From contig NC_132888.1 of the NCBI RefSeq assembly GCF_030463535.1, forward strand, positions 5,386,081-5,450,080: a DNA stretch of 64,000 nt, written 5' to 3'. This stretch comes from Salminus brasiliensis (taxonomy: Eukaryota > Chordata > Actinopteri > Characiformes > Bryconidae). Position 1 is the first letter of the stretch, and each line of letters starts with the position of its first letter. This document shows positions 20,956-43,344 of this stretch, piece by piece. Below the pieces are notes generated by a model. That model made no database searches. It was not told the DNA's origin and saw only the letters and a program-made list of their open reading frames with translations. The position numbers and the translations under genes were made by a program.

Positions 20956-21179
20956 TCAAATAATCTGCTCTTCCTCACTGTGAATGTCACAGTCATCCGT
21001 CTGAATAACAGGTAGGCTCGCTATGTCCTCAAAAACATCTGAGTAGGTATTAAAGTCTATCCTTTGATTTATAAGGCTCTCCCACTGTTGCGTGGCTCCG
21101 AAGCCAGTTGTGTCTGAGGGCATCTGGACATCTCTGAAAGGTGATGGGACAGCTAATATAAGCTGTCCTCTGGACCAGT
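20956..21179 (-). CDS. fat4-like: FAT4-like exon 16 (C-terminus)
   Basis: The acceptor TGTGTTACAG precedes AC TGG TCC, and the frame continues exactly from the previous exon (GAA G + AC). It encodes 74 residues ending in [20 protein letters not shown] plus an acidic EEEQII tail, then TGA. The DVF-D-ASLP core matches the end of FAT4 as I recall it. This small exon lies 1.5 kb from the rest of the tail. Confidence 0.9.
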
Positions 21180-24100
21180 CTGTAACACAGAGGAAAAACC
21201 ATAAAAAACATTTCAAAACAAGTATCTGAGTTAAGTAAGAAAAGCTGGGAAAAAGTTAACTTGGTCGTAAATTGTAACATAAATTTAAGCCTTTGAAAAA
21301 ACGAATAATCTTTTAATGGAAGTAAATGTAATGTATTACAAGTCATTTTAAAGCATTTTATTTTTCTATTCAGCAAGTAAAACTAACAATTGGCAGGGTA
21401 TTTTGTTCATTAGCAGACTCATCATAAAGTTAAAAGTCAAATTAAAAAGTAACATATTGCAGAAATAGCTAATTAACCTAACAAGACTACAAAAATGTAT
21501 ATAAAAATACAAAATGTATTAATATAATTACATAAATACATGTTGCAGCTTCTATATATAAATTCTTTATTGAACCTATGTTTTAACTTAATTTAAATTA
21601 AATTAAATGTGTATTGAACATGGCATTGCTGATTTGAGAACATGAATTATTGTTACTTAGGACAATTATTTTTTTCAGAAATTGTCCCACATTGCCAACA
21701 TTACCAACAATTGGCCCACATTATAACTGTGCCACATTAGGAAATGCATTGAGTAGCAATATGTTTACCATTGTTTTGTGGGCTATGTCCTATTTTTCTT
21801 TTGGTTTGATTAGGACACATCCTGATGATTCTAGAGAGTCATGGGGTGTGGATTTAATGTATTTACTTCACATCATGATACATTCCAAGAATATAAAAAA
21901 GTGTAAAATGCAAAAATGTCCTACATTACATTCTTATAAATAAAGGTGCCTAAAGGCATTATTTGAGTGATGCCATTAATGAACCACTTTTGGTACCATA
22001 AAGAACCATGATTTTGTTAAAGATGTGTTACTGAAGAACCTTCACTTAATAGCTTCACTTGATAACTTGATATTAAGGATATTTACTCTTATACATCCTT
22101 GTTACAAACATAGTTCTTTATGGAACCAAAAGTAGATATTCTATGGCATCTCTCAATGAATTTTTTGAATAATTATTTAAGGGCGTGGCTAATTCACAAC
22201 AAGATCTCATAATATTTGTACATATACAACAAAGCACACACCAAAACATCTGTAACATTTGCACAAAGATATGTTGTGTACTTTCAAGTTTAGGTTTAGA
22301 ATGAGGTGTAGGTTTAGGTAATAAAATTACATGTTGGTGTAAGGATTGTGTTAAGTTTAGGTTAGGTTATGCTTAGAATTAGGCTTAGAGGCCAGAGATT
22401 AAGCTTAGGCTTGGTTTAAAGTGTTGGTTTAGGTTATAAAATTTGACTGATAATATTTTAAATTGTAACATTCTTTGTTCAATTCTGTTGCATCAGTAAT
22501 CTCTACAGATGTACAACTATATTTAGTTTGCATTGTTCAAATCCTGAAATGGTCTTTTAGTCACATGAGCACAAATTCATATTGAGACCAGGCTGAAATT
22601 CACCCTACAGAGAGGGTGATAAGTGTCTAATAAAGTGACCAGTAAGTCTATATTAATCAGTTTTCTTATTGGCAGTTATTTCCACTCTATGCCAAACTAA
22701 ATCTTCTCTGGGCCCTTACCTTCAGTTGCAGGTCCACGCCTATTCTCCTGGGCACAGATAAAGCAGAGTTCCTTCTCACAGTCATATTCAGAGCAGGTGA
22801 AGGAGCTGTGACTTTCAGTCTCTGATGAGCTCTCTGCCACCCTGGCTGCATTGAATGGTCTCGGTTGGTTTTCGTGTGGCCCTGTGTGGCCATGAGAAGT
22901 ATCTCCTGCTTGATCAAGTTTCTTAATCTCATCCTCTGTGAGAAAACATGGAGGATCTACCAGTCCCAGTTCAGGGCTAAGCAATTTTTTGGAAAGGACA
23001 TGAGTTTGATGACCCTTGCACTGACCATTTTCCACATTACCACCAGAACTTCTATTGGTAGGAAGTTTACCACATCTGAGAGCAGAGGTCTCAGGGCAGA
23101 TTTGATGCGGCAGCTTTGTGGGTTCTTGCTGTTCTCTTTCACACATGGGTGGAGAAACTCGAGGGCTCAGTCTTTGTGGAGATTTTGCCCATGGCCCTAA
23201 CCTAAGAGAGGTAATGCCACGACTGTCTTTGTTTACTTGCAGGCTGTGGTCCATACTAGAACAGTATGCTGTGTATGTACTATCAATCTCATAGTACTCC
23301 AGTTCACTTCCTCCAAATCCTGTAAGATGACTGGAAAGACCCCCTTCATTGTAACTTTCAGCCCCCCTCATCAGCTCCCCTGGCACTATCAGATCTGGTT
23401 GTTTGCTGCTTTCATTGGAAATGTCCTGGAGACCACCCTCACCATGGTCCAAACTGAATGCTACATTGTCCATGCCATACTGTTTTGTTGGTAGTGCTTG
23501 GCCTGCTTGACTCCTGTGCTTTATATGGCAAAGTTTTCCTTGCCTCTTTAGGACAAAGCAAAGAATGACAATTAACAGAAGAAGGGCTATGGGAAGCACA
23601 ACAGCGATGATCCACAGGGGTGCACTTTTATGGGCTTGGAGACAATCCTCTCTGTGCTCAGTGGCAGTTGAACAGGTCCCACACAATGAAGCAGAGACAT
23701 TATGTAGACAGACACACCAGCTATATTCTGAAGGAGACGAAATACAATCACTGCCGCTTTGACAAGACGGGGTCGGACATAATTCCTTAAAACAAGGTCT
23801 TAGGACACAATCTTCTGCAGATGCACAGTCATTCTGGAAGAGTAAAGGGCTGGGTTTGGCCTCAACCATCTCACTGTGACCGCTGAAAGGTAGGGTATGA
23901 CCATTGAGTTTGACGTACTCCACACATCCTACAAATCCTGAAAGATGAAAATGGGTGAAGACAGCAAGATTATGCCAAATCAGGGGCCTCCGTCCACTCA
24001 GCTGATTAACTTATATATTTTAGAGAACATTTTAGTCTGTTTGGCTTGAGCATCATGGCAGACATCCAACTGCAGTTGGAATAAACTTAACGTTTTTTTT

Positions 24101-27100
24101 AGAGCACATTTATACAGAAATCAATATTTTACAGTGGCTTGGAATGTAGCTCTGTATATTAGATGAAAAACAGATGTAAACTGAGAAGTGATCTGATTTT
24201 GCTGATCGGTCATGACTTTAAAAAGAGAATTAAAGTCCAGTTATCACCAAAATCTGCATATCTCTGTGCTTTTCATTTGCATTTTTGGTTTGGTACCACT
24301 CAAAAAAATAAAATCAAATAAATAAATATGCTTTGCATTTAAAACCGTGCCTTTCTAGTACTCAAGATTCCTTTACAAATGCATTAATGATCACAAAAAA
24401 AGATAACATATAAAGTTCTATGGGGAAATCATATGAAAGTTCAGTCAAAATGTTCATGAGGCATGCCGTTGGCTGGGGGAACGTATTTGTCACCGTACAG
24501 CAAAATGTGTCCTCCGCATTTAACCCATCTGTGGTAGTGAACACACACACAGAGCGGTGGGCAGCCAACTCCAGTGCCCAGGGAGCAGAGAGGGTAAAGG
24601 GCCTTGCTCAAGGGCCCAACAGTGGCAGCTTGCCAAGCCCGGGAACCGAACCCACAACCCTGTTATCGATAACCCAGCGCTCTAACCGCTGAGCCACCAC
24701 TGACCCAGGTGTGTATAGCTGCAGATAGTCATGTGCATAAATAAGGTCTCACTGACTGAGAACGTGTGTGATGTGTCCTAAATGCCCTGAAAAGGGTTTG
24801 AGAGTTTGGAAAGCAGAGTTTTGGGTGAAGCAAGCGAAATTATGAAAACATAACTTAATAAAGTTGGGGTTCATCCATAATTTCAGATCATTTATACATT
24901 AATGTGGTGAGAGGGAGAGCATAGTAGACCTAAAATCTGCATATCATCTGCATAACAGTGGAATCTAAAAGAATATTCTAGCCAAGCAAAAGCATATAGG
25001 CTATATGGTGAAAAGCAGGGGGTCTAGTACTGATCCCTGAGGAACTCCTTGCATTACAGGGACAGACGAGGATATGTGCTAGATTTGTAACTTTGAAGCT
25101 GACATGTAAAATGAGTAAAAAATGCTCCATGGGCTTAAAGACACCAGAAAATACAACCCAGCCCAGGAATTTGGTAACTATTATGAAACCAGTGTCAGAA
25201 GCCAGACTAACCAGATTGAAGATCTTCTGAGTTCCCAGGTGGAGCTGACCCCAGCATGATCGTCTCTACTATGAAAGCAAGGTGGCTAATGATGTTGTGG
25301 GTGATGTCCATAATAGACTGCTCATCCAGGAACAGAACTATGCTTTGTCTAAATCTGCGCAGGAGAAGGACATGCCATTGTCCATCTGACACACTTCTCT
25401 CCAAACCAAGCTCCCACTGCTGTCCAGAGGTGACATTTGTCAGTACATAAACAGGTTTCCCATCTGATATCTGAGAAATGGAAAGCCCAGAAACATAATC
25501 AGTTTGTGTGCAAGTGTCCATATACTTTGTCTGTCTTGTATTTTTCCACTTATGGCATTTGTATGAGTTAAAATACCAAAAGTATTCATTTTTACATGAC
25601 TATTTTCTAAACTTTTCCAAACAGGCTGTTTGCTGAGCAATTAATGCTGATATATGTAGATTATCAGACTGTCTGTGAAGCATGAAGTAATTTCAGATTA
25701 ACCGATTTTTACTGTGAAGACTGAAACTCTTCATATAAACCCAGTGTGAATAGGTGAGACTAAACTTCTCCAGAGTTGAATAGACAGATGTGATGTAAAT
25801 GTTTACATACAATCAAAAAAACCTTTGAAGTATATTAATTATTTCATATATACAGTTTCTTACCTTAAGTTTTAAAGATGCTGTTCTGCTCCAAAACAAA
25901 ATTAAAATACTGTTTTGTTTGACAGTCCTGAATTTGATCTCAAAGCTGATGAGCCCTTGAGTGGTGCCATCCTTTTCATCAAGCCAGGCTTGAAGCAGCT
26001 GGTTCCTGATATAGCTTTCTTTGACCAAAAACTCAACGTGTGTCCCATCATTAATAAATAATGCATTATCTTCAGAGATATCTATTAGATAAAAAGATAT
26101 ATTCCTGTTAGTTGCTTGCAGCTGTGTTATTTATTTTTTATTTTTATTTTTTTGTTATTGGTGTATGTTTTGTTGTAGGCTAATAATAAAGCTACTTTTG
26201 GAACAGTTGAATCCAGTGAAATTCTCAGCACATTGACAATAGTGATGAGACCAGAGATCTTGGCAAACCCCCCCATTCAGACATTTAGTAGCAATGCAGG
26301 GAGCTCTATCTGTCCGTGGACATCTGTAAAAAGCAGCAAAAAGTGAATGACTTTAAATGGCATGAAGTCTAGTTTGCCTATCATGACTATTACAACCTGT
26401 TGTCAGTCTAAGTTGGAACAGATCCATAACTAACATACTTTGTTGTCCTACCTACACTTTGTATTTCCATAAAACATACCTTTCAAGTATCTTGTTGGAT
26501 GCCATGGCCTTCACAGCATCAAGCAAAACATTGTTCACTTTCATGTTTCTCATACATCCAACAAAGTCATGGGTCCTGACTTGAGATGGCCTCAGCAAAA
26601 TTACATCAATGGCCTTCACTCCTCCAAATGTCAGGTTATTGGTCCTAATATCCAGAGTCCTACAGAGAACAATGAAATTTCTATTGGTTCATTATTCATG
26701 ACATTTTGACATAGTGTAAAGAACTACTGTCAGGTTGGCATTACGTCAAAACAGCTAAAGTGAAGGTGCTTGTTTTTTGTCTGACAGCGAGAATAAGTTG
26801 GTGAACAGCATAAAGAACACCAATACCAAACCCTACCTATCACTTCCAAAGCCTTCATGTTGTGACATACAGAAGTCTTTGGGCTCATCAGCAGAGCAGC
26901 TGTCCACCTCTAAAGAGGCTATCTGCCAATCAAATAGGAACATCATGAGAAAATATAAAAAGCATAGACTTAGATATTGTTTGAGAGTGGCTAAAGCTTT
27001 GGGAAACACCAAACCTTCCAAAATGAAGTTGCAGGTATAAAGATAAGTGGCTTACATTTCCAGTTCTCCTAATAGTGATGTTATGGAAGCTTCCATCAGC

Positions 27101-30100
27101 CACTGCTTTTCCTGTCTCCAGTCTTGCGACCCCTGACCCAAGATCATACGAGAGGCACAGCCTTCCATTAACAATCTCAAGAGCCAAAAACTCTGAGGTA
27201 GATGGGTCACCAGGGTTATACAAAAGCAAAGAGTTCTGTTTCACAGTTGCAAACTCCAGAGAGATGAAGTTGTATCTGGGATCTAAGGGGGGAAACTCCA
27301 TGTAGGACAACTCTTCAAAGCCGTAGCTATGCTCTTCACAGTTAGGCCCAGTCACACCTGCGGACAACCAGGACCATTATGATGAACACAACGTACAGTG
27401 CATGTGTATTTAAACATGAAGGATATTCCAGGTAATAGTAGGAAACCTCTAAAAAGATAGATTTTACCAAATGGACATTGGCAAGTGTATCCAGTTAAGA
27501 AGCTCGAGCAGTTGCCAAGTAGACAAGGGGATGATGCACAATGGTCTATGATAAAGTCACAAAATCTTCCTATAACAAATAAAGAGCACATTTAATTAAC
27601 CTGCAGCATTTCTGACCAAACAAAGCAATGTTAAAATAACTGCATTTGTAAATATGGCTGATACAGCATCGGTAGTTACCTTCATATCCAGGTCTGCATT
27701 CACAGAAGAACCCTCCTTGTATGTTCCAGCATGTCCCACCATTTGAACACATCACATTCTGACATTCATTATCCACAATGGAACAGTGCAGCCCCGAGAA
27801 GCCCTCTTTGCAGTTGCAGAAAAATCCTCCGGGGTTGTTATAGCAGGTCCCCCCATTATCACAAGGGTTCTCCATGCATTCATCTATGTCAGACTCACAC
27901 CTAGCCCCAGTAAACCCAGCTAGGCAAGAACAGTTAAAGACTTCAGCGTAATGGGGAGACACGAAGATAAGACGGGAACTCTCCAACACAGCAATCTCCT
28001 GACTGATATGGATGTTCCTGTTGCAGGTGGCACCGTTTTGACAGGGTTTAAGTGAGCAAGGGTCACTGGTAATATGAGATATAGTCACATTACTCTGTGC
28101 CTCAAGCAGTTTCTTGTGCATGTTTGAGATGCCACTGGCCACGTCTCCAGTCAGATACAGTCCATTGTAGCTTTTCACAGCTGCCAGAAGAAGCATTTTG
28201 TCTCCTTGCAATTTTATCCCAAATACATGAGTTTTAGATGCTTGCAGATTGAAGAGGCTATCCAGAGCTTTCACAAATTTCAGATACTTTAGGGATAGAA
28301 AGTCCTCAACTGTGGATAAAGATACATAGAACAAGACACAACTGTCCAACGACAAATTGGTAAAACCTTTGTAACTCACATAGATGCTGTTGTTTACTGA
28401 TGGGTGGAACTGGTCACTTGCTTCCACTGTGATATTGTAGGTTGCCTCTCCTTGAAATGGAGAAGACCACAAGTCACACTTTCCAAATGGAAAACTAAAC
28501 ATTCTCGTTGGTCCACTTCGTAGACTGCAGTTGAATATATCTGATACGTCTAGATCATCTGGTTTCACGTCACCAATTATTCCTCCTGGGAAGGAATTAC
28601 CATAATACTTAACCAAAATATTGATATTTCTTTGTACTGGTGGATTGTCATTTTCATCTAAAACTTTAACATGAAACACAGTGGTGGAGGACAAGGGAGG
28701 GGAACCAGCATCTTGGACTACTACGTACACCTGGAAAAGAGAACTGTGTTCACGATCCAGTGGTCTGGACGTAAATAGAACTCCATTAGATGTGAGGGTG
28801 AAGCTGTTTTCCATGGCAGGCATCTTCAACCAGTAGGTGAAAGGGCCTTGGTTTGGAGGAAGGTCATCATCTGCAGCTGTCAATGTAGCCACTAATGTGC
28901 CATGTGGCTGGTTTTCCTTAATGTAGCCCTCCATGATTGTGAGTCTAGGGGCATTATCATTGATGTCAGTGATGGTGACAACCACAGTTGTGCTGCCTGT
29001 TACTGGAGGTGACCCCTCATTAATAGCAACAACTGTGAGGTTATAAAGAGACCATAGCTCTCTGTCTAACTGATTGTTAACTGTAATAATCCCATTTACA
29101 GGATTTATGCTGAAGGAGTTGTTGTAATTTCCACTGTCTATGTCATAGGAGAACCGGCTCCATTCCAATACCACATCTTGGTCTGAGGCACTTACTTTAA
29201 AAACAGAGGTTCCAACTGAGGTTTCTTCACGTACAGACACTGTGTAGAGAGAAGATTCAAACTCTGGAGGATCGTTTTCATCGACTACATGCACATGTAC
29301 TAGGGCCTCGTCAGTGTTGAAGCCAGTAATCCTACCTCTGTTCTTGGCTAATACACGAAGAACAGCATGATTCTGCACCCTATTCCTCAAATCTTTGGAA
29401 GTGTAGATTTTTCCACTACTTTCATCAACTACAAAGCCTGTCTTTTTACTCTGACCAAAAAGTAAGTATTTAACCTCTCCATTGAGCCCCTGATCATAGT
29501 CTATGGCCTGCACATGTCCAATTTCCGTTTGCGGCGGCAGAGTCTCAGGCACTGAAAAGTTGTAAAGATGTCTCTGAAAAGTGGGTATGTATTCATTGAC
29601 GTCTGTAACTTGAATGTGAACATTGGCTATATCAAATAGATAGTTATTTTCAGTGTTAGAAGCCTTGATAGTAAGTTCAAAACTCTGCTGTTGCTCAAAA
29701 TCAAATATCTCCAGAGTGATGATCGTGCCATTTCTGGAATCCAGAGAGAAGAGTTCTGCCGGTCCTGACAGCAGTGAATATGTTATATGAGCATGACTTC
29801 CAGAGTCCTTGTCTGTAGCTCTTATCTGAATCACTGATGATCCAATCGCTGAGTTTTCTAAAATAGAGGCTGTGTACTCAGATGAGGTAAAAACCGGTGG
29901 ATTGTCGTTTACATCTGTAACATTTATTGTTACATTAATTCTCCCAGTCTTAGAGAACCAGCCTCCGTCTTCGGCAAGGATAAGAACATGATGAGACTCT
30001 ACCTTCTCAAAGTCAAGAGATTTTACTAGCTTCATAAGTCCTGAAAGAAGCCCCACAGAAAACAATCCATCCTCATTTCCACCTTCAAAAGAGTAAGAAA

Positions 30101-33100
30101 GTAATCCATTAGCACCATCATCTTCATCATTGGCAAGAACTTTTCCAATAACTGAGCCCAGAGGTAGGTCCTCAGGGACAGAAAATACAAGATTGTTTTC
30201 AGAAAAATGTGGCGTGAACAGATTTTCCAGGGTTACTTCAAACTTGACGTCCGTTTGGGAGGAAAGAGGAGGTAAACCTTTATCTTTTGCTGTAACTACA
30301 AGACTTAAGTAAGTTCCAAAGCTTTGCCTTAAAGTTCTATTCAGACGTACTTTCCCACTGTGGAGTTCTATCTCAAAGTAACGTGATGCATTTCCTCCAC
30401 TGATGATGTACTCAACACTGTTGTTCTCTTCTGGAAAGTCCTCATCTACTGCTTTTAACTGGAGAACCTCTGTGCCCTCTTTCAAGTTAAAAGGAACTGA
30501 CAAAAGAGGTCTGAAGGGTAAAAAAGATGGAGGAAAATAATTATACTGAACAAAAGTCACTGTGACAGTGGCCGAGCTGTTCAGAGGGACATCGCCACAA
30601 TCAATTGCCACAACAGTAAAACTAATGCTTTGAGGTTCAGAGTCACTGATAGCGATGGGTTGTTTTGTTAAAATGTCTCCAGTGGATGTGTTAACAGTAA
30701 AAGTTTCAGTTGGTGGGTCTAAGAAGAAGAGGATTTGGGCATTTTGTCCAAGGTCCCTATCGACAGCGTTAACTTGAAGGAGGAAAATTTCTGGGGCTTT
30801 TGTCTCGGGTATGGTGGCAAAGTACCTGGACTGAGAAAATACTGGTCGATTATCATTGACATCGGTGATGGCTATAGTGACTTCTGTGCTGATACTCCAA
30901 GCTGAATCGTTGGCAATAACCCTCACAACATAATAGTCCTGCCGTTCTCTATCCAATGGGCCCACCACCACTATAGTTCCACTGTTCTTATCAATGCTAA
31001 ACGGAATTTGCTCAATCTGGTCAAGAATGGTATATGAAATGATAGCATTAACACCAATGTCCTCATCTGTGGCAGTTATCTGAATGACTGGAGAGCCAAT
31101 GAGTGCATCCTCAGGAACCTCAGTAAAGAAAATCTCAGAGAAACGAGGTGCATGGTCATTTGTGTCCTGAAGAACTACATTAACCACTGCAGTGGAAGTG
31201 TGATTAGTGTCATCTTTATCTATGGCTTTAATGATAAGTTTATACTCTGCTACGTCCTCTCGGTCTAAACTCATTGTTGTTGAAAGAGTGCCGTGAGTTT
31301 GGTCTATTATAAACACCCCATCCGTGTTGCCAGACAAAATTGCATATTCCACTTGTCCATATACCTGTGAGTCAGCATCAGTAGCCAACACATCACACAC
31401 CCTGCTTGCAGGTACGTTCTCAGACACTTCACACCTATACTCCTCCTGTGTGAATACGGGTGGGTTATCATTCACATCACTGACATTCAAATGGATTTCA
31501 GTAAATGTGGAAAAAGGAGGAAGGCCTGAGTCTCTAGCCTCAAATACAAGGTGGAATTCTGTGTTTGTCTCAAAATCCAAAGATCCTTTCAGCATCATCT
31601 CACCAGTCCTCTGATCCAGCTCAAATACGCCTCCAGCGTTCCCAGATGCAAGGTACAAAGACACAGGTCCACTTCTGACCGCCTCTGCAGAGGCAACTGC
31701 CACCATAGTTCCAGGAGGAGTGTCTTCAGAGAGTGATTGCTTATGTATGTGCACTGCAACACGAGGGAAATCTGAGGCATTTTGAAAACGTACAGTCAGT
31801 GTAGTAGAATCAATTTTGGGGTTGGCTCCTCCATCCTGCACGTGAACATTGACTGTAACATCTCTGGTTCTTCTCAATGATTCCATGGTGAACACAGTTC
31901 CCCTGTCAGAGTTGACAGCAAATAGATGGGCATGCTGTCCATGCAGGGAGAAATGCAACTCTCCATTCTTTCCTTCATCTTCATCCTTGGCCACCAATGC
32001 ACACACTATTGATCCTGCAACACAGTGTAAGGGACAGGTTGTGAAAATGCATTATTTGGGGCCCAAGCAGACATGCAATTAAGTAAGTATACCCAGGATT
32101 ATGTGTCATTCTTACCTTTGGCCAATTCAGAAGGAACATTGGCCACATATGGTCCATAAAGAAATTGTGGTGAGTGATCATTCGCATCCCCGATGGTCAC
32201 TAGGACAGTGGCTGAGCTTGAAAGAGAATGCCTGGGGTGTCCATCACTGCCCACTACAGTAACACTGTAAAAGGCTGTTGTCTCTCTGTCCAGAATGTCA
32301 GTACTGAATAACTCTCCAGTAGTTTCATTGACGGAAAACGGCATGCCAGCTCCCTCTAAAGAATACCTTTATTAAAATTTTGGAAATCAGCTTGAGGTAG
32401 GAAAAGTTTTAATGCAGCATTCATAAAAATAAGCCGAAGGTTTCAGATAGATAACAAAAGCAAACGTTCCATATAATAGTGTACAGCAGACTGTATGAGT
32501 GGGAGATCCCAAGAATAAATGTACCATGTTACCTTATTTGTCCATTCACACCAACATCATTGTCTGAGGCAGTGAGCCTTGCAAAGATGGTTCCAGGTGG
32601 GGCATCTTCTGATATAAATGTGCTGAATTCATCTTTATCAAACCTGGGCCTATTGTCATTGACGTCGTCAACTATAACAAGTAGAGTTCCAGTTCCTGTC
32701 AGTGGTGCTACACCTAGAAATGAAGATCTAATATCATTAGAATGTCGATGAACTATCTGAAACTTGTCTCTATGTTCTCAGTCCTCAGTCGGCTGAAGAT
32801 CAATGTTTGCAAGCTTACTCAACACAATATCCTCTCTTTATCTCTTTATTCAATATATTATTCAATATCTAAGCAGAGATATTTAAATGTGCTCTAGAAT
32901 GGAAAACTACATTAATCTTAAATAATGAGAGTTCGGTTAATCAAAGTGACATATTGTGAACCTCAAACGCTGCTGTATCCTCATTCAACAAAAAAAGTAA
33001 AAGAGCTGTAAAACAGGCCAATTCCAAAAACCCTTACACAACATAGTCTTGGCCTATATAATTTATCCCCACTAACAAAAGCCTTTCAGGGCTAAACACA

Positions 33101-36100
33101 ATGGCTACTTCAGAAGAATATGGAAGCAAGTCCGAAAGGCTAAAAGCTGATGCTAAACTGGCCGGAGCAAGCACTGCTGTGGTTATCCGGCTCTCCTGAC
33201 ACCTTTGAAGTGGCTGAAAAGACTAAAAAACAAAAGCTAATTGGAGGATGGTAACACTATCTGGTAAGACAATTTTAAGCTAAGCTAGGCTAGGCTAAGG
33301 TAAGATAAAATAGGATGTGCTGTGGAGCTCTAAGCTACCTCTGTGACATAAACCATCCGATAAAAGCAGATGTTTTTTTATTCCAAGTCCACCATTAAAG
33401 GATGGTAGATAAACAGGGTGGTAAATAAGCTTGTAAAACATCATTTGACCCCTGCCAAAGTCACAAACGTACTACCTATACATCAGAAACACACAAACCG
33501 GATTCCAAAAAAGTTGGGACACTAAACAAATTGTGAATAAAAACTGAATGCAATGATGTGGAGATGGCAAATGTCAATATTTTATTCGTAATAGAACATA
33601 GATGACAGATCAAAAGTTTAATCTGAGTAAATGTAACATTTTAAAGGAGAAATATGTTGATTAAAAATTTCATGGCGTCAACAAATCCCAAAAAAGTTGG
33701 GACAAGTAGCAATAAGTGGCTGGAAAAAGGAAATTGAGCATATAACGAACAGCTGGAAGACCAATTAACACTAATTAGGTCAATTGACAACATGATTGGG
33801 TATAAAAAGAGCTTCTCAGAGTGTCAGTGTCTCTCTGAAGCCAAGATGGTAAGAGGATCACCAATTCCACCATTGTTGCACAGAAAGATAGTGCAGCAAT
33901 ACCAGAATGGTGTTACCCAGCGTAAAATAGCAAAGACTTTTAAGTTATCATCATCAACCGTGCTTAACATCATCAAAAGATTCAGAGAATCTGGAAAAAT
34001 CGCTGTGCGTAAGGGTCAAGGCCATAAAACTCTACTGGATGCTCGTGATCTCCGGGCCCTTAAACGTCACTGCACCTCAAACAGGAGTGCCACTGTCAAG
34101 GAAATAACAGAATGGGCTCAGGAATACTTCCAGAAATCATTGTCAGTGAACACAATCCACCGTGCCATCCGCCGTTGCCAGCTGAAACTCTACAGTGCAA
34201 AGAGGAAGCAATTTCTAAGCAAGCTCCACAAGCTCAGACGTTTGCACTGGGCCAGGGGTCTTTTAAAATGGAGTGTGGCAAAATGGAAGACTGTTCTGTG
34301 GTCAGATGAGTCACGATTTAAAGTTCTTTATGGAACACTGGGACGCCATGTCATCCGGACCAGAGAGGACAAGGATAACCCAAGTTGTTATCAGCGCTCC
34401 GTTCAGAAGCCTGCATCACTGATGGTATGGGGTTGCATGAGTGCTTGTGGCATGGGCAGCTTGCATGTCTGGAAAGGCACCATTAATGCAGGTTCTAGGC
34501 TCTAGAACAACATATGCTCCCATCTAGACGTCATCTCTTTCAGGGAAGACCCTGCATTTTTCAACAAGATAATGCCAGACCACATTCTGCAGCAATCACA
34601 ACATCATGACTAAGTAGGAGAAGGATCCGGGTACTGAAATGGCCAGCCTGCAGTCCAGATCTTTCACCTATAGAGAACATTTGGCGCATCATAAAGAGGA
34701 AGGTGCGACAAAGAAGGCCCAAGACGATTGAACAGTTAGAGGCCTGTATTAGACATGAATGGGAGAGCATTCCTATTTCTAAACTTGAGAAACTGCTCTC
34801 CTCTGTACCCAGACGTCTGTTGAGTGTTGTAAGAAGAAGGGGGGTTTGTTGACGCCATGAAATTTTGAATCAACATATTTCTCCTTTAAAATGTTACATT
34901 TACTCAGATTAAACTTTTGATCTGTCATCTATGTTCTATTACGAATAAAATATTGACATTTGCCATCCCCACATCATTGCATTCAGTTTTTATTCACAAT
35001 TTGTTTAGTGTCCCAACTTTTTTGGAATCCGGTTTGTAGTTAAGGCATTGTTTAGCATATTTAAGATTACTAGCTCACATATTACATAATATGATTAATG
35101 TTCTAGGTTGTATGAAGATGAAAAATAAATTAATTGATTACCTGAGTCAACAGCAATAATCTTTATTGTATGGAGACTCTGTATTTCCCTATCAAGATTC
35201 TGTAAAATCCAGAATGTTCCATTCGGATTTAATAAGAAGGGGCCCTCTGAATTTCCACTCGTCATGAAGTATGTCACAAGACCATTCAATCCCAGGTCAC
35301 CATCAAATGCTGATATCTGAAAAAGACAAAAACATGTTAGAACATTAGACAGGCATTGTGTTGTTTAAGTGAAGTCACGATCATTACCAGTTTGAAAAGA
35401 AATGGCTTTGGTCAAGGAACCAATTCCTACCTGATGCATGTTCTGAGAGGGGTCCTGCCCATTTTCTAATACATGCAAGGTCAGCAATTCCTGGGAGAAG
35501 ACGGGTACACAATCATTTATATCCAGCACTGTGATATTGATGGTGCCTGTGGACGATCTTGGAACATCTCCCTTGTCCACAGCTGTAATAGTGAGAGAGT
35601 AGGAAGACTTCTTCTCTCTGTCCACTTGGTCAATTACTGAGACAACACCCAGCACTGAGTCTACCATGAAGCCACTCTCAGACACATGATACTGCACTTC
35701 TCCATTAGACCCAATGTCACGATCACGTGCTTGAACTTTTAGCACACTTGTTCCACGAGGAGTGTCTTCATATATAGCCACACTGTAGAAGGCTTCTGAA
35801 AACACTGGATCATGGTCATTAACATCCTCAATGAGAACGGTGAGGTCCATGGAGCTGGCCAGTTGGGGAAAACCTTTATCTTTGACTGTCAAGGTTACCA
35901 TAACAGCATCTTCAAGTTCCCTGTCCAATGGTTTCTGCAGGTATATGACTCCAGTAGTACGATTGATCCTGAACGTACCTCCTCCTGAATTCTCCATGCT
36001 GTATATAATTTCACCATTAGATCCAGAATCTGCATCTACCGCTTGTATAGCTGTAACAACAGCCTGAAGAGGGGTATCCTCTGGACAGGTGACTGTATTA

Positions 36101-39100
36101 TCTGATAAGAAAAGTGGGGCATTGTCATTGATGTCCTCCACATGGACAGAAACACGAACAGTGGCAGTGAGACGCGTGTCTTCAGGTAAAGTGCGATCGC
36201 TGGCCTGAAGTAAAAGACTGTACATTGCAGTTCTCTCTCTATCTAGCTCTCCTTTTAGACACAAATGACTCTGTAGGGTCACCGAGAACGTGTCTTCATT
36301 GTCTCCTGATATTACAGCTACATCCACTTCTCCATTTATACCTGCAAATTGCAAAAGGAAGGGAGAAAAGGCAAGTTTTACTTTAGTATTTTAGGCACAA
36401 CATTAGAAGATGTAAAATCCAGCCCCATTGACAGATGCACGCGCCATCTGTGTGTGACCCTGTCTGGCCTGTCATCTTTTGCTTATTATGCCAGACAGAA
36501 TGCTGAGGGCATGCTCTCAGGGGACACTGTTTCTCCTCTCTCATCTGTCTCTCCTTACCCAATACCAACCGAAGTAAAGCAGCAGAATCTCATTACACGC
36601 TAACTGCTTTACTCATTTACTTATTTCCACAGGATGAGCCCTTGATCTGTCAGTCCAAAAAGGATGCTGAGTCCACAGTATATTCCCCCCTCCCTGAAGA
36701 CAACACAAGGCAGACAGAGGGAGCCGTTCCATTATTAGCAGAGCAAGGCAGTTCCCCCGAGACAGCTCTGCCTATTCATCTTTTCTGAGCGGCTACAAAG
36801 GATGCGTGACGTAAGACTTAATGAGACTGCTTCTGCTGTTCCGGCTAGTCTACGTCTCTCAGCCCAACATGTGAACCTTGTGCTTTTACTCCTGACGACT
36901 GAATGGGTCGGCTGCACCAGCCAGTGACTGAAGGGGTTCTTTAGAGACATTCTGTGGCAAATTTGCAACTGCAAACCTTTATGTCTTCTTCTGACTGTCA
37001 TTGTTCATAAAGTACACATCCCAACAGTCTACACTTTAAACTTTATTACAGGACAATTAGTCAAGAAAATTGACATATAAGACAGTTAGCTGACGCTCTT
37101 ATTCAGAGCCAGTTTCAGGTGAATCATGTGACACAGGAAGGAGAATGTAGTATTAGAAATCTAGCCTAAGTACTCTTTATTGGCTTAGTGTACTGGGCTT
37201 GCCTAGCCAGGGAATAGAACCCTAGTCTGACTTGGAGAAGGTGGTCCCATGACAGCAATATCGTTGCTGAAATGCAAAAACCTTGTATCTCCTAAATGGC
37301 AGCAGTAAAGGAGAAGAAAAAGATCTTATTAACTTTAAATGGAAGTCAAAATAAAATATTGTATTCTTAGTCATTTTGGAGCATTTGGAGCAAAAGTAAA
37401 AAAAAAAAAAAGTTTTTTTTTGCTTTGTTATGTTATATCCTGATGCCAGCAGCATAACAAAATCAAAGTCTTCCAAGTAAGTACTTAAGCTATGATGATA
37501 TTTTTCTTTTATTCCTAAAATATTAAGTGAAATTAACAAAAATAATCACACAAAACTCTAGTATTTCTAGTATTTCTGTATTTGCTGTTTTCTTTACACT
37601 TTTTGACATCTGGCTGTTGTTTGTGATGAAAGGACCAATAGAAATGCTCCAAAATAACATGAAATAAAAGCTTTTAATACTGAACCCCAATTATTTTTTC
37701 CCTTCTGTTAAGTTGCTGTTTTTTGAGAAGCGGTTTTGTGTGACAGCAATGAAATGGTAGAATGAGGCGTTTCACGTAATCAAAGCAAACATGCAACTAT
37801 GAACCTTAATAGCAAGGTGTTTCCCACCACAACCCATCTGATTCAGCTCATCAAGTATTTATCAAGCCTTTATGAGTTAAATCAGGTGTTTCGGAGCTGA
37901 GAATACATGAGACTGCTGGGCTTTGTGCAGGCTCATACTATAGATTAAAATAATAAATTAATTTATTCTTAGTTATGTCTATGGAGGCCCTTTTAAAGAA
38001 CTATATAAATACTTTCAGTGCATGTAAAAAAGCATATGTATACACATATTTATGTATATATTTTCTCTCCCAAAGCAAAATATTACATCTCTAAGGGTTA
38101 AGATGCACACCACTTAAAATTAGTATCAGACCAGCATCTGATTACATTTGTAGGTGTATACCCCGTCTACTGACCGTCATCAGCATCTGAGACATTCAGG
38201 GTGAAGAAACACATTCCCACTGGAGCGTTCTCTGGTAAGGAGATGGAGTGGATATTCAGTTTGAAAACAGGTGGGTTGTCATTGACGTCAGCCACATTGA
38301 AATATACCCGGACCCGAGCAAGCCGAGCGTCCCCGTGCTGCACTGCTGTGGTGAGAATATAGAATTGTTCTAACTCAAAATCCAAGGCACGGGACAAAAG
38401 GAACTCTCCGGAATGTGGGTTGAGAAGGAAAAGGCCATCCCCGTCATCCTCCAGCACAGAATACACCAGGGTCCTGTGGTCGTCATCAAGGACAGCTTCC
38501 ACAAGTCCCACAATTGTTCCTGTGTCAAAGGACAGATAAAGGACACAAGAATGTCCTTTGAGATGGTGTTGCTTTGCTCTGTGATTGTGCCTAGACCATT
38601 AAGTAGACCAGTTCACTTCCTTACTCACTTTTCAACATGGTTTAAAGCTACAGGAAATGATCATTGCAGATGAATTAGTTGAAGTCTTAAAATTACAACC
38701 TGGCAAGCCGATTTCGAGAAGGAATTAGTTAAATTAGCAGGCCTAAGCGTATAATGCTCAGCGGGAGGCAGCATTCAGTCTCATCTGGAAACAATGGGTT
38801 GAGTTTGTGGAATGCTAACAGCACATAGGCCTACACACAGCATTAGACATGCTTTACAAGTAACCTAGGCTACAGACAGGTGTCCAAGTAGTGGTTATAA
38901 AGGAATGAAACCTCCGGTTGTATAATAATTTACTGTGTCCTGTTACAAAAAAAGTGACCTACCTGGCTGTGTATCTTCTTTCACTTCGAAAGAATAAACA
39001 GACTTGGAGAATGACAACTGAGGGAAACCTCTGCTCCGAGTTTGGTCTAGCTCAGGATTGCTCTTAGACAGCTGCTCTGAGATGTTCAACCAGGTCTTTT

Positions 39101-39173
39101 CTTCGCCTGGAAACTTCAGACCATCTAAGAGATTTATGGATTTCACTCCATACGTGGCCAACATGCTGATAAT
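20956..39173 (-). CDS. fat4-like: FAT4-like giant atypical cadherin, 16 exons, 5' end missing
   Basis: A single-pass adhesion receptor related to FAT4/Drosophila Fat. FAT4 binds Dachsous-type cadherins and acts in planar cell polarity and Hippo signalling; that role is inferred here from family. I traced 16 exons with consistent phases: 38963-39173, 38175-38519, 35431-36341, 35142-35316, 32533-32713, 32116-32366, 27680-32014, 27468-27569, 27056-27357, 26837-26922, 26480-26659, 26196-26323, 25864-26081, 25212-25470, 22720-23937, 20956-21179. They total 9126 nt, or 3,041 residues plus stop. Order: a ~50-residue non-cadherin start, about 17 cadherin repeats (to about residue 1820), a degenerate membrane-proximal repeat, four EGF domains, laminin G, EGF, laminin G, a Cys-rich stretch, TM (about 2668-2689) and a tail of ~350 residues. 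The laminin-G start [20 protein letters not shown] and the tail motifs [11 protein letters not shown] and [10 protein letters not shown] point to FAT4 rather than FAT1-3. Human FAT4 has 34 cadherin repeats and about 4,980 residues, so this copy is shorter or its 5' exons lie outside what I could recognise. Confidence 0.93.
21966..22148. mobile_element. GGTTCCATAAAGAACC-family MITE
   Basis: The left arm GAGTGATGCCATTAATGAAC CACTTTTGGTACCATAAAGAAC pairs with the right arm GTTCTTTATGGAACCAAAAG...ATGGCATCTCTCA. These are terminal inverted repeats of about 40 bp around a ~100-bp centre with no coding capacity. Related copies are at 45313-45455 and 56565-56775, with a partial one near 61420. Confidence 0.75.
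22285..22440. repeat. degenerate GTTTAGGTTA repeat
   Basis: Many irregular copies of GTTTAGG / TTAGGTTAGG / GCTTAG. It resembles the vertebrate telomere unit but is too irregular to be called interstitial telomeric DNA. Confidence 0.6.
22720..23937 (-). CDS. fat4-like: FAT4-like exon 15 (juxtamembrane, TM, cytoplasmic)
   Basis: 406 residues. It starts [20 protein letters not shown], the end of the second laminin G domain, followed by a Cys-rich EGF-like remnant ([20 protein letters not shown]) and the TM segment [20 protein letters not shown] (about 23550-23616). A basic stop-transfer KRQGK follows. The tail contains [23 protein letters not shown], and a Ser/Glu-rich [18 protein letters not shown] resembling the conserved FAT4 tail segment. 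Donor CTGAAG|GTAAGG. Confidence 0.92.
23938..25211 (-). other. FAT4-like intron 14 with SINE
   Basis: Contains a tRNA-derived SINE at 24448-24710; otherwise AT-rich sequence without recognised features. Near 25000-25080 there is a short stretch (GATCCCTGAGGAACTCCTTG) that looks LINE-derived. Confidence 0.65.
24448..24710 (-). repeat. tRNA-derived SINE (family 1)
   Basis: On the minus strand the head reads GTGGCTCAGCGGTTAGAGCG (A box) and, 25-30 bp on, GTGGGTTCGGTTCCCGGG (B box, GGTTCGNNTCC-like). The body GCCACTGTTGGGCCCTTGAG CAAGGCCCTTTACCC follows. Copies on the plus strand occur at 56795-57010 and 57912-58075. Confidence 0.85.
25212..25470 (-). CDS. fat4-like: FAT4-like exon 14 (laminin G2, second part)
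   Basis: Acceptor CATTTCTCAG. It encodes [12 protein letters not shown] through [10 protein letters not shown] (the typical laminin-G DG-WH motif) to [15 protein letters not shown]. Donor CAATCTG|GTTAGT; the leftover G joins GA of exon 15 to make Gly. Confidence 0.9.
25471..25863 (-). other. FAT4-like intron 13
   Basis: 393 bp of AT-rich sequence; no feature seen. Confidence 0.6.
25864..26081 (-). CDS. fat4-like: FAT4-like exon 13 (laminin G2, first part)
   Basis: Acceptor TATCTAATAG, then AT ATC TCT GAA GAT. Encodes [20 protein letters not shown] and [20 protein letters not shown], the first strands of a laminin-G fold. Donor CTTAAG|GTAAGA, phase 0. Confidence 0.88.
26196..26323 (-). CDS. 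fat4-like: FAT4-like exon 12 (EGF between laminin G domains)
   Basis: Encodes the EGF module [20 protein letters not shown], then [12 protein letters not shown], with six cysteines in EGF spacing. Acceptor TTTTTACAG; donor CCAAAA|GTAGCT is weaker than the others but keeps the phase. Confidence 0.87.
26480..26659 (-). CDS. fat4-like: FAT4-like exon 11 (laminin G1, last part)
   Basis: Encodes [20 protein letters not shown] ... [17 protein letters not shown], the conserved GGV and F-GC-R elements of laminin G. Acceptor TCTCTGTAG, donor GAAAG|GTATGT. Confidence 0.9.
26837..26922 (-). CDS. fat4-like: FAT4-like exon 10 (laminin G1, middle)
   Basis: A short 86-bp exon encoding [20 protein letters not shown]. 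Acceptor GATTGGCAG, donor GATAG|GTAGGG. It matches the LTVDSC segment of FAT4 laminin G1 by position. Confidence 0.87.
27056..27357 (-). CDS. fat4-like: FAT4-like exon 9 (laminin G1, first part)
   Basis: Closes EGF4 (VTGPNCEE) and starts laminin G with [20 protein letters not shown], then [16 protein letters not shown] and [20 protein letters not shown]. This is the segment that most clearly marks the protein as FAT4-related. Donor GGAAAT|GTAAGC. Confidence 0.92.
27468..27569 (-). CDS. fat4-like: FAT4-like exon 8 (EGF4)
   Basis: 34 residues with [20 protein letters not shown] and CQCPFG. Acceptor TTTGTTATAG, donor CCATTTG|GTAAAA. Its first loop is shorter than in a canonical EGF (CLLGNC rather than C-NGG-C). 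Confidence 0.88.
27680..32014 (-). CDS. fat4-like: FAT4-like exon 7 (giant cadherin/EGF exon)
   Basis: A 4,335-bp exon encoding 1,445 residues: the end of cadherin repeat 6 to repeat 17, a degenerate membrane-proximal repeat, and EGF1-3. Canonical DxNDNxP linkers follow repeats 8, 10, 13, 16 and 17; the linkers after 7 (ASDFPRV), 11 (QYNYFPPSF) and 12 (ENLFTPHF) lack the calcium ligands. EGF2 and EGF3 read [20 protein letters not shown] and [20 protein letters not shown]; the first is calcium-binding type (DIDEC). The acceptor is TGTTGCAG and the donor GGATATGAAG|GTAACT. One exon of this size near the same place is also known in FAT4. Confidence 0.95.
32116..32366 (-). CDS. fat4-like: FAT4-like exon 6 (cadherin repeat 6)
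   Basis: Encodes [37 protein letters not shown] and the linker [10 protein letters not shown]. The acceptor TTTTAATAAAG at 32367 keeps the phase (AG+G = Arg). Donor GCCAAAG|GTAAGA. Confidence 0.9.
32533..32713 (-). CDS. fat4-like: FAT4-like exon 5 (repeat 5/6 boundary)
   Basis: Encodes [25 protein letters not shown], then [20 protein letters not shown]. Acceptor TTTCTAG, donor ATAAG|GTAACA. Confidence 0.9.
33494..35036 (+). mobile_element. Tc1-like transposon, near full length, long TIRs
   Basis: The left end AACCGGATTCCAAAAAAGTT and the right end AACTTTTTTGGAATCCGGTT are inverted repeats. The homology continues inward for about 200 bp (ATGTGGAGATGGCAAATGTC; TTCATGGCGTCAACAAA), so the TIRs are of the long, internally repeated type seen in some fish Tc1 families. 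A TA follows the right end. It carries a damaged transposase gene on the strand opposite to the host FAT4-like gene. Confidence 0.92.
33846..34853 (+). pseudogene. Tc1-like transposase, recently inactivated
   Basis: Starts [20 protein letters not shown] and is open to 34505. It shows the first HTH, the second HTH ([19 protein letters not shown]), the first catalytic Asp in VLWSDESRF and the [12 protein letters not shown] block. A small deletion/rearrangement near 34490-34510 breaks the frame. The sequence resumes with [14 protein letters not shown] (second Asp), an in-frame TGA near 34608, and [17 protein letters not shown] (third catalytic residue). All catalytic motifs are still legible, so decay is recent compared with the other Tc1 copies here. 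The ATG at 33846 is preferred because family members start at this MV. Confidence 0.88.
35142..35316 (-). CDS. fat4-like: FAT4-like exon 4 (cadherin repeat 5)
   Basis: Encodes [20 protein letters not shown] (the DxDxGxNG calcium element) to [19 protein letters not shown]. Acceptor GTCTTTTTCAG, donor GACTCAG|GTAATC. Confidence 0.9.
35431..36341 (-). CDS. fat4-like: FAT4-like exon 3 (cadherin repeats 2-4)
   Basis: 303 residues. Linkers [20 protein letters not shown] and [10 protein letters not shown], with DRE motifs ([33 protein letters not shown]) in each repeat. Acceptor AATTTGCAG, donor CATCAG|GTAGGA, phase 0. Confidence 0.93.
36342..38174 (-). other. FAT4-like intron 2
   Basis: Contains a short SINE/repeat-like piece at 37070-37215 (TAGCTGACGCTCTTATTCAG) and T-rich stretches; no cadherin-like frame was found. 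Confidence 0.6.
38175..38519 (-). CDS. fat4-like: FAT4-like exon 2 (cadherin repeat 1)
   Basis: Encodes [35 protein letters not shown] and the linker [10 protein letters not shown], then the start of repeat 2. Acceptor TTTGACACAG, donor GATGACG|GTCAGT. Confidence 0.92.
38520..38962 (-). other. FAT4-like intron 1 (as traced)
   Basis: 443 bp; no feature recognised. Confidence 0.6.
38963..39173 (-). CDS. fat4-like: FAT4-like exon 1 (first exon traced)
   Basis: Encodes about 50 residues without cadherin motifs ([20 protein letters not shown] ... [11 protein letters not shown]), then the first strand of cadherin repeat 1 ([19 protein letters not shown]). The proposed acceptor is TTTCATAG at 39174. 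The ATG at 39164 is in frame but is not followed by a signal peptide, so an upstream exon should exist; none was recognised to 46 kb. Confidence 0.75.
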
Positions 39174-39990
39174 CTATGAAACCGGGAACAAACAGCAAGA
39201 CCAAAGGTTGCAACGGTTACCAAATACTGTATATTTTAAAGCTGACATTTCCACTGTGGGAAAACCACAGGTATGCTGGACACCATGAGCAACTGCACAC
39301 TGTAACAATTGTGGCTACTAATTCCCATATGGCGTGAAGAAAGAGGTTCTTTGTGGAAGACCTTTTCTAAAGGCAGCAACACTATACCTTGACTTGTAAG
39401 GTTTCTTCTTTGGGAGCCCTTGTTCCTTTGAGTCTTTCACAGTATCCCTTGCTAACCTGAATATGTTCTTTGAATCCCCAGAGCACCTGGCAGGTACTTG
39501 ACTCAAAGGATGCATAAAGGCAAGTGCTTTGGGAAGTCAACAGGTGTAATCAGGAGTACTGAAATCTTGTTGTTGTTTATGTTTGCATTAAAAATACATT
39601 TCAATATTAGACACATTATTAGACCTGTTATACAAACACTGTAGGAAAATGATGTAGGGCATTTCAGTGGTGCTGGAGGCATTAGCATGGCTATACCTAA
39701 AGTCTGAATGAGTCAAAGTTAGCCTATAGTCTACAAGCACAGGTGGAAATACAGAAATGACTATCCCCAAGTGAATATATATGTACAGTGGTAGTAAAGG
39801 CTGCACTGGTCCTTAATCTAATAATTACTGTAGGTAGCATTTACACACTGGTATACAACTGGTTAAATGTTTTGATACAATCAATCAATTAAAATCTGCA
39901 ACACCCCCACTGATTGGCTTAGTAAGGAGAGATTTTGGACCTTTGACCTTTTTATTGAGTATTTAGAATCTCAAAAAAGTACACTAAGTA
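39174..39990. other. intergenic/5' region of the FAT4-like gene
   Basis: No signal-peptide-like exon was recognised on the minus strand. Unique-looking AT-rich sequence. Confidence 0.45.
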
Positions 39991-40502
39991 TACAAATATG
40001 TACAAAAGTAACCGGACACTTCTTTTTGAATGGTTGAGTTGCTTTACAGTGCAACGATTACTGACACAGGCCTTCAGTTGCATATGCAGCTTGTTTCACT
40101 GACATAGAAAAGCATTGCCAATACAACAGGACGCTTTGGAGCACCCACACATCCCGAATCTTAAGTCACCATGCCCAAAGATATATGTGGTACATAGAGG
40201 GGTAGAAAGCCCTGCAGCACTGGGCTGGCTGTGGAGCAGTGCTGGATCTCTAACCAACACCTCTGAAATAGGTTTGAGTGGTATTTTTGATCTGTAATTA
40301 ATCATCCATTATCAGTACCTGACCTCGCTAATGCTCTCATAGCGGAATGCCATCAAATCCTCATAGCAATGTTCCAAAATCTAGTCTAAGGCCTGTGCAG
40401 AAGCAGCAAAAGGGAACATACACTTTATTATTATTTGCCTTGATTTAAAAAAAAAACAACAACTCTAAAGGATCAGGTGTTTACAAACTTTTGGACGTGT
40501 AA
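39990..40502. mobile_element. Tc1/mariner-related MITE
   Basis: The left end GTACAAAAGTAACCGGACAC and the right end GTTTACAAACTTTTGGACGT are roughly inverted copies (complement ACGTCCAAAAGTTTGTAAAC). The interior has no transposase. A different MITE with similar ends lies at 62467-62780. Confidence 0.65.
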
Positions 40503-41120
40503 AACAATGTTTTGGTCACTTGGAAATGTAAAAATACAAGAATTCTGTTTTAATAAAACATATATACACATATAAAATAGTGCTTTTCTATACTATTCTG
40601 AAATCTCAGAAACGCAACCCTGGAGGCTGCCTGTGAACCATGAATACACACTGTAAATAATGAAGCTGTCAGCATACTCACCAAAGACTGCATGAGAGCC
40701 ATTAATCCCAAACAAGCCATTTTCACGTGCAGCCATTTACCTCTCTATGCAGGCATGAAGACATTTCTGAGCTGAAACATGTGAGGGCATTTCCATATCC
40801 TGGATGTTTACCATCTTTCCAAACCAGAGCAAACTGAGTGGGTATGCTGGGAGTGGAGGAGCTCAGCACTGGGTCCAGCACTGTGGAGGAATGCATTGCA
40901 GCCTGTCCAAAACAGGGGGGAAGTGGCCTTTGCAACTCCGCCCCCAGAGACTGCAAAGTGGATTCAGATTTTATGGGCAGTCAGGTAACAGAGAGCACTT
41001 TAGGAAAGTCTTGTTTATTCCAATTTCAGCTGAGGCTTACAAGTGAACGAGTTACTTAATCTGCTACCTGTTTACAGCATCCTCAGTTTGCACATTTACA
41101 AGGAAAGGGTGCTGTAAATA
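40503..41120. other. intergenic, nothing recognised
   Basis: ORFs of 60-80 codons exist on both strands at 40720-41060 without domains, signal peptides or splice context. Confidence 0.45.
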
Positions 41121-41121
41121 A

Positions 41122-41123
<2 letters not shown>

Positions 41124-41175
<52 letters not shown>
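41124..41175. repeat. (AT)n microsatellite
   Basis: About 26 uninterrupted AT units, with further AT-rich runs at 41237-41263. Confidence 0.95.
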
Positions 41176-41176
<1 letters not shown>

Positions 41177-41267
41177 ATAATACTCATTTACAAATACTGC
41201 TCATTGTCATATACATATATGTGTATGTGAAAAAAATATATATATACATATATATATATATACACAC

Positions 41268-41415
41268 ACGGCTCCTGGGTGGCTATGCTGCGCTACACCG
41301 ATAAGAGTCCTTGAGCAAGACTCCTGACACTACATTGGCCCTCCTCTGTAATATGGATAACCTTGTAAGTCGCTCTGGAGAAGAGTGCCAGCTTAATGCT
41401 ATAAATGTAAATGTA
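41268..41415 (+). repeat. SINE family 2 copy, 5'-truncated
   Basis: Contains CTGCGCTACACCGATAAGAG, CATTGGCCCTCCTCTGTAAT and TAAGTCGCTCTGGAGAAGAG, in the same order as the copies at 42978 and 43955. The tRNA-like head is missing and the tail is (GTAAAT)n. Confidence 0.8.
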
Positions 41416-41429
41416 AATATAGTCTGAAA

Positions 41430-41790
41430 GGCAAAGCTCGGTTCCAGGTTTCTCCTGGACGCCCCCCAGTCCAGCCAGCACAGCGTGGAGGATGTGTTCA
41501 ACTCCATCAGCAGCAGCTGCAGCAGCTCACCTGATTCACCATCATTAAGCCCTGATTCACCACCAAACCAGGTGTTGATCTGAGGAGAACTCTAAATAAT
41601 ACCAGACTCCATGAGAGAGGAGAACTTTGGAGATGTTCTAATGATGAACACAGTGATGGAGAACCTCCACCACTTTCTGTAGGAGTGTTATTATTAGTGT
41701 TTATTCTAATATCCATGTTTTTCTGAGGAGATAAACACTCACTGACCAGATAACCAGAAAACTGCCTCAGACCTTTGCACAGTACCATAT
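41430..41790. repeat. interspersed repeat, family not identified
   Basis: The block CCAGTCCAGCCAGCACAGCG to GGAGATAAACACTCACTGAC has the character of a dispersed repeat (I recall similar blocks in characiform genomes), but no second copy is in the window. It ends in an AGCAGCAGCTGCAGCAGC stretch near its left side. Confidence 0.4.
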
Positions 41791-42977
41791 ATACTAGGCT
41801 CCATTATCTTCCTGAAATATGCGTATTCTGCCTTCGTTTGTTCACTAAGACTTACCCACACACGGTCTAATTCCCCATCCAGTCCTCAGAGCTGAGGCTC
41901 CAGCTTTGTGTAGTTTCCTTTGCATATTTGTTGCTTCATCCACTAACGGTCTGCTGTGTCTGTCCACAATTAATGTGAAGTGACAAAGATCTATTCAAAT
42001 ATTTTCCCTTTCTCACATGGCAGTCTTTTACCTCATTTCAATTCACTGGTCGCCAGCATGGCACTCACCCAGAAGGTGAATGGAAAGGCCTGGAGTGAAA
42101 AGGGACTCAGCAGATAGGCTTAGGACACTTCTCCAGAGAAGAACCACAACGGTAGAGAATATTACCATTGTCTTGAATCAAGATCAGGAGGTTCTCATAG
42201 AGATGCTTCCACAGTCTTTTGACTTGCAGTGAATTTCTTGGTATTCAACTGGCAAAAAGAGGCGCTTTTTTTTTTGCTTTTTGTTGCAACAGCAGGCACT
42301 TAGAGCCGTCAACAAAAGGGAGGTTTGAATTTGACATCTCAATAGAAACCAGGCCGTGCGAGAAGCTTGGTTCAGTGAGGCTCCAATGAAGCTGCTACAG
42401 AGCAGCAGGGAACTGAAGCCTTCACAAAGCAGGGAGGATGATTTCTTGTCATATTTGCAACACTGGAAAAATATCTCAAATGTGATTATAATAACTAGCT
42501 CTTTTCACTTCCCTAAAAGCCTACTTTAGCTAGTGCTGATCACAATTTCTGCATAATTAAAGGGTTCAGATGTGTACAAAGTCATTCACCGAGGTTTGGT
42601 GTGAAGGAGTCAGAGTTGTTCGCGGTGGTGGTGAATGAAAGCAGGCGTCTATAGAGTTTAATGTCCTTAAAAGCACAGAAAGTTTTTTTCATTAAATGAT
42701 TATGAATGCCCAATGACAAATTACACTGCTGTCCAATGAAAAACATGTATCTCCATTTTTGTCTGACTTTTAAATTTCCCCATGGTTTGAACCCTGTAGC
42801 TGCTTCAGTACACTGTGTAAATATTACTGGATGAATGGACTGATAGAAATATTCAAAATTACTTGGAATAAACTTTTAGTTTACATTGATTTCCATTCAA
42901 AGTCTTTTTTGGAGATATATGTTTTTCATTGGACAGTGACAATATGCTTTTTAAAATGATTAATAAATATATATTTT
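41791..42977. other. intergenic, nothing recognised
   Basis: No coding or RNA feature was recognised. A ~25-bp inverted pair (AAAACATGTATCTCCATTTT near 42740 and GAGATATATGTTTTTCATTG near 42914) may mark another small MITE at about 42705-42940. Confidence 0.4.
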
Positions 42978-43183: not shown

Positions 43184-43204
43184 TATATATATATATATAT
43201 AGTA

Positions 43205-43298
43205 TTTTGCCTTATAAAAAAATATTTTGGGATATTGGGATTGGGATTGGGATATTTTGGCATACGGAAAAAAATGTAATAAAAATCAATAATAATAA

Positions 43299-43344
<46 letters not shown>

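Follow-up and report, generated by a model that had tools for sequence, protein, structure and literature searches.

The window (the whole 64,000-nucleotide stretch of DNA that was analysed, C11:5386081-5450080 of a genome of 1.07 Gb in 103 contigs) carries a fat4-like gene on its minus strand, running from position 39173 to position 20956. We rebuilt its 16 exons, with GT at 15 of 15 donors, AG at 16 of 16 acceptors, phases that agree throughout and a reading frame of 3,041 codons that ends in a single terminal stop. A previous reading made from the sequence only had described sixteen exons joined in phase without a stop at 20956-39173, and this description was reproduced in full.

All exons lie on the minus strand, and they were compared with those of a longer fat4 gene on contig C12 of the same genome. 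Exon 1 (38963..39173) enters in phase 0 and leaves in phase 1; it is the counterpart of fat4 exon 3, and its last ~17 codons form the start of cadherin repeat EC18. Exon 2 (38175..38519) corresponds to fat4 exon 4 and holds EC18 and the start of EC19, and exon 3 (35431..36341) corresponds to fat4 exon 5 and extends from EC19 into EC22. A further part of EC22 is encoded by exon 4 (35142..35316), whose counterpart was not found on C12, where the stretch concerned contains 2.5 kb of masked sequence. Exons 5 (32533..32713; fat4 exon 7) and 6 (32116..32366; fat4 exon 8) cover the end of EC22 with the start of EC23, and EC23 to the start of EC24, respectively. The large exon 7 (27680..32014, 4,335 bp; fat4 exon 9) encodes EC24-EC34, the membrane-proximal region and EGF repeats; among them, EC26-30 correspond to the repeats that form the C-terminal Dachsous-binding site. 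Downstream of it, exon 8 (27468..27569; fat4 exon 10) encodes EGF sequence, exons 9 (27056..27357), 10 (26837..26922) and 11 (26480..26659) the first laminin-G domain up to its end, exon 12 (26196..26323) again EGF sequence, and exons 13 (25864..26081) and 14 (25212..25470) parts of the second laminin-G domain. Exon 15 (22720..23937) contains the end of this domain, a cysteine-rich region, the transmembrane helix and most of the tail including a 10-residue box, and exon 16 (20956..21179) contains the end of the tail with the FAT4-type Y.DVF.D.ASLP box and the stop codon. Exon phases were compared by eye for the six fat4 exons in which both borders were read (exons 3, 4, 5, 7, 8 and 10, against exons 1, 2, 3, 5, 6 and 8 of the window gene), and they agreed in six of six.

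Just downstream of the gene lie two open single-exon olfactory receptor genes (13398-14450 and 17260-18336, plus strand; Pfam 7tm_4). Remnants of a Tc1-like transposase were recognised by eye at 33738-34505, in the intron between exons 4 and 5, and at 4291-4746 (both on the plus strand). Olfactory receptor and Tc1-like genes of this kind suggest that the genome is probably that of a fish. On the upstream side, an hmgb1-like gene occupies 46010..49750 on the minus strand, with four coding exons, a polyA signal (by eye) and a CpG-rich upstream stretch (47.8-49.75 kb; observed/expected 0.86-1.5, G+C 0.38-0.56). Its protein is 75.6% identical to HMGB1, 71.2% to HMGB2 and 67.7% to HMGB3 (all approximate reference sequences); HMGB1 and FAT4/HMGB2 lie in related human chromosome regions. 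The hmgb1-like gene has the same orientation as the fat4-like gene and stands between exon 1 and anything farther upstream. A 35-bp tandem repeat (51639-52212; 16.4 copies, 95% matches) is open in all three plus-strand frames, as expected since the unit length is not a multiple of three. A reverse transcriptase frame at 53226-54023 on the minus strand (Pfam RVT_1), probably from a LINE, ends in a stretch that matches ALKBH8_N. Rfam and tRNA scans gave no match.

Domain content and relation to FAT4

Pfam recognised 6 and 11 cadherin stretches, 17 in all, in the two parts of the protein that bear them, together with EGF and two laminin-G stretches. Against an approximate human FAT4 reference of 4,982 residues, residues 55-3024 of the window protein are colinear with residues 1841-4956 at 40% identity, and each of its 17 linkers corresponds to the end of one repeat from EC18 to EC34. 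The odd FAT4 linkers that follow EC24, EC29, EC31, EC32, EC33 and EC34 are common to the window protein; the EC28 linker differs from that of FAT4 in that the DxND motif is lost. The EGF and two laminin-G domains precede the membrane, with the transmembrane helix judged by eye, and the tail retains both FAT4-type boxes. Because the EC18-EC34 linker register and the tail boxes match FAT4, the window protein is, as judged from its sequence, the C-terminal half of FAT4 and not an unrelated cadherin with 17 repeats. The Pfam stretches and the linker register thus bear out what had been proposed before, namely about 17 cadherin repeats followed by a FAT4-type EGF/laminin-G block, a transmembrane segment and a tail. 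Set against the 34 repeats by which FAT4 is recognised, the window gene has 17 (EC18-EC34). When the large exon was compared with solved structures, CELSR1 came out best (541.5 bits) and a Fat 4 chain was listed at 127.7 bits; since this chain is an N-terminal fragment, the order of the two does not decide the family.

Exon 1 had been described as a ~50-residue non-cadherin segment. Given alone (71 residues), it indeed matched no Pfam family, but EC18 already begins with its last ~17 residues. Exon 3 of the C12 fat4 likewise enters in phase 0 and leaves in phase 1; its end reads ...KFSRSVYSFDIPEDMAPG, with which we compared the closing 18 residues of window exon 1; the identical phases and the matching 3' ends make the two exons counterparts. 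The first ~53 codons would be either a decayed EC17 or non-coding sequence. Open runs of 50 codons also follow 4 of 48 acceptor-like sites in nearby non-coding DNA, so that a coding role of these ~53 codons is unproven. Compared without gaps, the start of exon 1 resembled C12 fat4 exon 3 over 12 residues with P about 0.004, a length that was picked afterwards (9 residues, P 0.016; 16 residues, P 0.08), and a free local alignment of the 5' part with the same exon was not significant (P 0.78). The likeness to fat4 exon 3, as expected of a decayed EC17, is at most suggestive.

The earlier reading had also advised a search of this genome for a second fat4, and the longer gene on C12 was found. Fourteen fat4 pieces on the C12 minus strand match the approximate human FAT4 reference at 58-91%. 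The open frame that contains exon 1 is 1,788 amino acids long; it carries 16 cadherin stretches, and Pfam recognises the FAT4 N-terminal domain in it. Some 57 kb separate this exon from exon 2, and exon 3 follows about 61 kb downstream of it. No C12 counterpart was recovered for human residues 2283-2338 or 4199-4665, both of which fall in stretches containing masked sequence; about 18% of the C12 stretch examined is masked (N), and it ends short of the residues after 4870. Because some pieces are masked or lie beyond this stretch, the 34 repeats of the C12 gene are partly inferred. The window gene is thus a second FAT4-type gene distinct from the longer fat4, as the earlier suggestion of a FAT4 paralogue had implied.

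For the age of the copy we compared 2,477 aligned columns from 11 fat4 exon pieces, the human sequence being the approximate FAT4 reference. C12 fat4 and human FAT4 were 72.0% identical, whereas the copy was 41.7% identical to C12 fat4 and 42.3% to human FAT4. Sites common to the copy and C12 fat4 alone numbered 137, and those common to the copy and human FAT4 alone numbered 152 (p 0.41); the power of this site test against an origin in the teleost duplication is, by a rough estimate, about two-sigma. As the copy is equidistant from both genes, a late fish duplication is disfavoured, and the comparison favours, with modest power, a duplication before the fish-human split. A fish-specific origin, as suggested previously, did not find support in these identities, at the same modest power; retention in fish only is possible.

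Search for the N-terminal half

With the approximate FAT4 reference as the query, 129 of 129 tblastn HSPs fell inside 20.9-39.2 kb of the window, and in the window outside the gene the cadherin profile gave no match better than E 6.9. Exons 1-3 of C12 fat4 gave three HSPs in the window outside the gene, at 4.4-8.0 kb on the downstream side (best E 0.089). The 40 kb beyond the window gave four tblastn HSPs (E 6.0 or worse) and four profile matches (E 5.3 or worse). The 64.8 kb that precede exon 1 (up to C11 5490080) thus show no recognisable cadherin sequence, and the window and the adjoining 40 kb contain no N.

Genome-wide, fat4 exon 1 matched itself at 3,974 bits, and the next-best match, at 235 bits, was fat4's own other large exon (best 26 of 472 scored). 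As a control for sensitivity, the large exon of the window gene found its C12 paralogue at 1,176.5 bits and 41% identity, followed by a match at 191 bits (best 32 of 742), so a comparable second exon 1 would be expected to be visible unless masked. A relocated exon 1 might hide, since parts of the genome are masked as N and only the best candidates were scored. A query with fat4 exons 2 and 3 found the C12 exons at 85% and 99% and other listed matches at 32-44%, none of them upstream of the window gene on C11 to 5490080 (best 150 of 1,260). The N-terminal Dachsous-binding repeats EC1-4 were found neither in the window nor in the 40 kb beyond it, nor among the genome candidates scored. Long arrays of cadherin frames, many of about 800-900 amino acids, lie at C2:15.89-16.16 Mb and C16:1.66-2.0 Mb and are probably two clustered protocadherin loci.

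The spacer between exon 1 and the next gene (39174..46009, minus strand) is the nearest room for a private promoter and a first exon, and it contains no CpG-rich stretch. We sought a signal-peptide first exon that joins exon 1 or exon 2 in 39.2-46.0 kb. Strict settings gave none anywhere; relaxed settings gave no candidate joining exon 1 and one joining exon 2 (ATG 42168, donor 42069), with none for either in the opposite-strand controls. This lone candidate was rejected as chance level because resampled sequence gives means of 0.43 and 0.48. With no second exon 1 found and no cadherin sequence in 64.8 kb upstream, the N-terminal half of the window gene looks lost. The previous proposal that it was lost or replaced thus gains support for loss, as nothing was recognised upstream or among the scored candidates, and none for replacement, as no signal-peptide first exon rose above chance.

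Origin and state of the gene

We consider it fairly probable that the window gene is an old FAT4 paralogue that lacks fat4 exons 1 and 2 and most of recognisable exon 3 and encodes Fat4 from near EC18. The two missing exons would have encoded EC1 to early EC17. A deletion or other rearrangement within the large first introns may have removed the lost part and brought the hmgb gene in front. The remaining gene would then use a private promoter and signal-peptide exon. Since neither a promoter nor a CpG-rich stretch nor a signal-peptide exon turned up next to exon 1, translation and secretion of the protein are unproven.

The same observations would fit a recently dead gene, in which the old FAT4 paralogue died when it lost its 5' half together with promoter and signal peptide, too recently for the rest of the frame to have decayed. 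Exon 1 is unrecognisable in its 5' part next to a conserved 3' end, and the DxND linker of EC28 is lost. We nevertheless find this account unlikely, given 3,041 codons without a stop and 15 introns that all keep GT-AG borders; moreover, if the decay in exon 1 reflects an old truncation, the intact rest argues for continued selection, although this decay is itself unproven. It is less likely still that a full-length second fat4 is present, with exons 1 and 2 more than 65 kb upstream and the hmgb gene nested in a giant intron. The distance of about 61 kb between exons 1 and 3 on C12 lends this some plausibility, and so do echinoderm Fat4 models that were wrongly split into adjacent genes (PMC10734073). 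On C12, however, exons 2 and 3 are only about 4 kb apart. Upstream of the window gene, no sequence like exon 1 or exon 2 was recognised in 64.8 kb of N-free DNA, a same-strand gene intervenes, and no second exon 1 appeared among the genome-wide candidates scored (best 26 of 472). An assembly error that dropped or misplaced the N-terminal half seems very improbable. Large fat4 first introns would ease such errors, yet we found no sign of one here: the window and the next 40 kb hold no N, the contig spans 40.8 Mb, and a misplaced unmasked exon 1 should have appeared genome-wide (best 26 of 472 scored).

Dachsous binding and comparison with known systems

Fat4 EC1-4 bind Dachsous1 EC1-4 (PMC9935876). 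Until 2024, mapping had placed Fat-Dachsous binding in repeats 1-4 of each partner; work reported that year added a second site nearer the C-terminus, located in Ft CAD26-27 and in human Fat4 CAD26-30 (PMC11497213). Flies whose Ft lacks CAD1-4 retain both Ft-Ds binding and planar polarity, but the shortened protein is a weaker binder and loses out in competition with full-length Ft (PMC11497213). If the window gene is a truncated paralogue in use, its protein would be unable to use the EC1-4 handshake with Dachsous; the retained EC26-30 counterparts and Fat4-type tail would make it a putative receptor limited to the second site. In planar polarity or adhesion, it may serve as a weak Dachsous partner that works through the C-terminal site only, or it may modulate full-length Fat4. 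EC26-30 are 38, 52, 36, 36 and 46% identical to those of C12 fat4. EC27 is the best-conserved repeat in the large exon, barely ahead of EC33 and EC34 (50% each), and EC26, EC28 and EC29 reach 36-38%, so the Dachsous site does not stand out by its conservation.

Vertebrate Fats are usually counted as four (PMC9935876). A bolder proposal, which we regard as doubtful, is that the window gene represents a fifth, a FAT4 duplicate that arose before fishes and humans diverged and survives as a naturally 'headless' receptor, relying on the C-terminal Dachsous site only or on neither. If so, it would extend the usual count and provide a natural experiment separating the two handshakes of Fat4: a natural Fat4 without the first site but with a counterpart of the second would make the two-site model testable in a vertebrate. 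A short or second fish fat4 was not described among the literature matches listed; a fossil fish otolith proteome names a 'protocadherin fat 4-like' protein (PMC9992438).

The window gene is an ordinary family member that is unusual as a natural truncation, the main doubt being whether it is alive; the earlier reading had judged from the unbroken frame that it looks functional. It shares with FAT4 and the C12 fat4 the EC18-EC34 register, most of the odd linkers, the EGF/laminin-G block, the transmembrane segment, the two tail boxes and the exon phases where read; it differs from them in having 17 repeats instead of 34, without EC1-16, and its tail is shorter than that of FAT4 (about 351 versus 456 residues). 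FAT1-3 are likewise large Fat-type cadherins (PMC9935876), but the only strong genome match of the window gene besides itself is fat4 (1,176.5 bits, next 191; best 32 of 742). The closest parallel in design is the engineered Drosophila Ft without CAD1-4 (PMC11497213), in which the N-terminal Dachsous site is also absent while the region of the C-terminal site and the Fat tail are kept. In contrast to that construct, the window gene is natural and is missing 17 repeats rather than 4.
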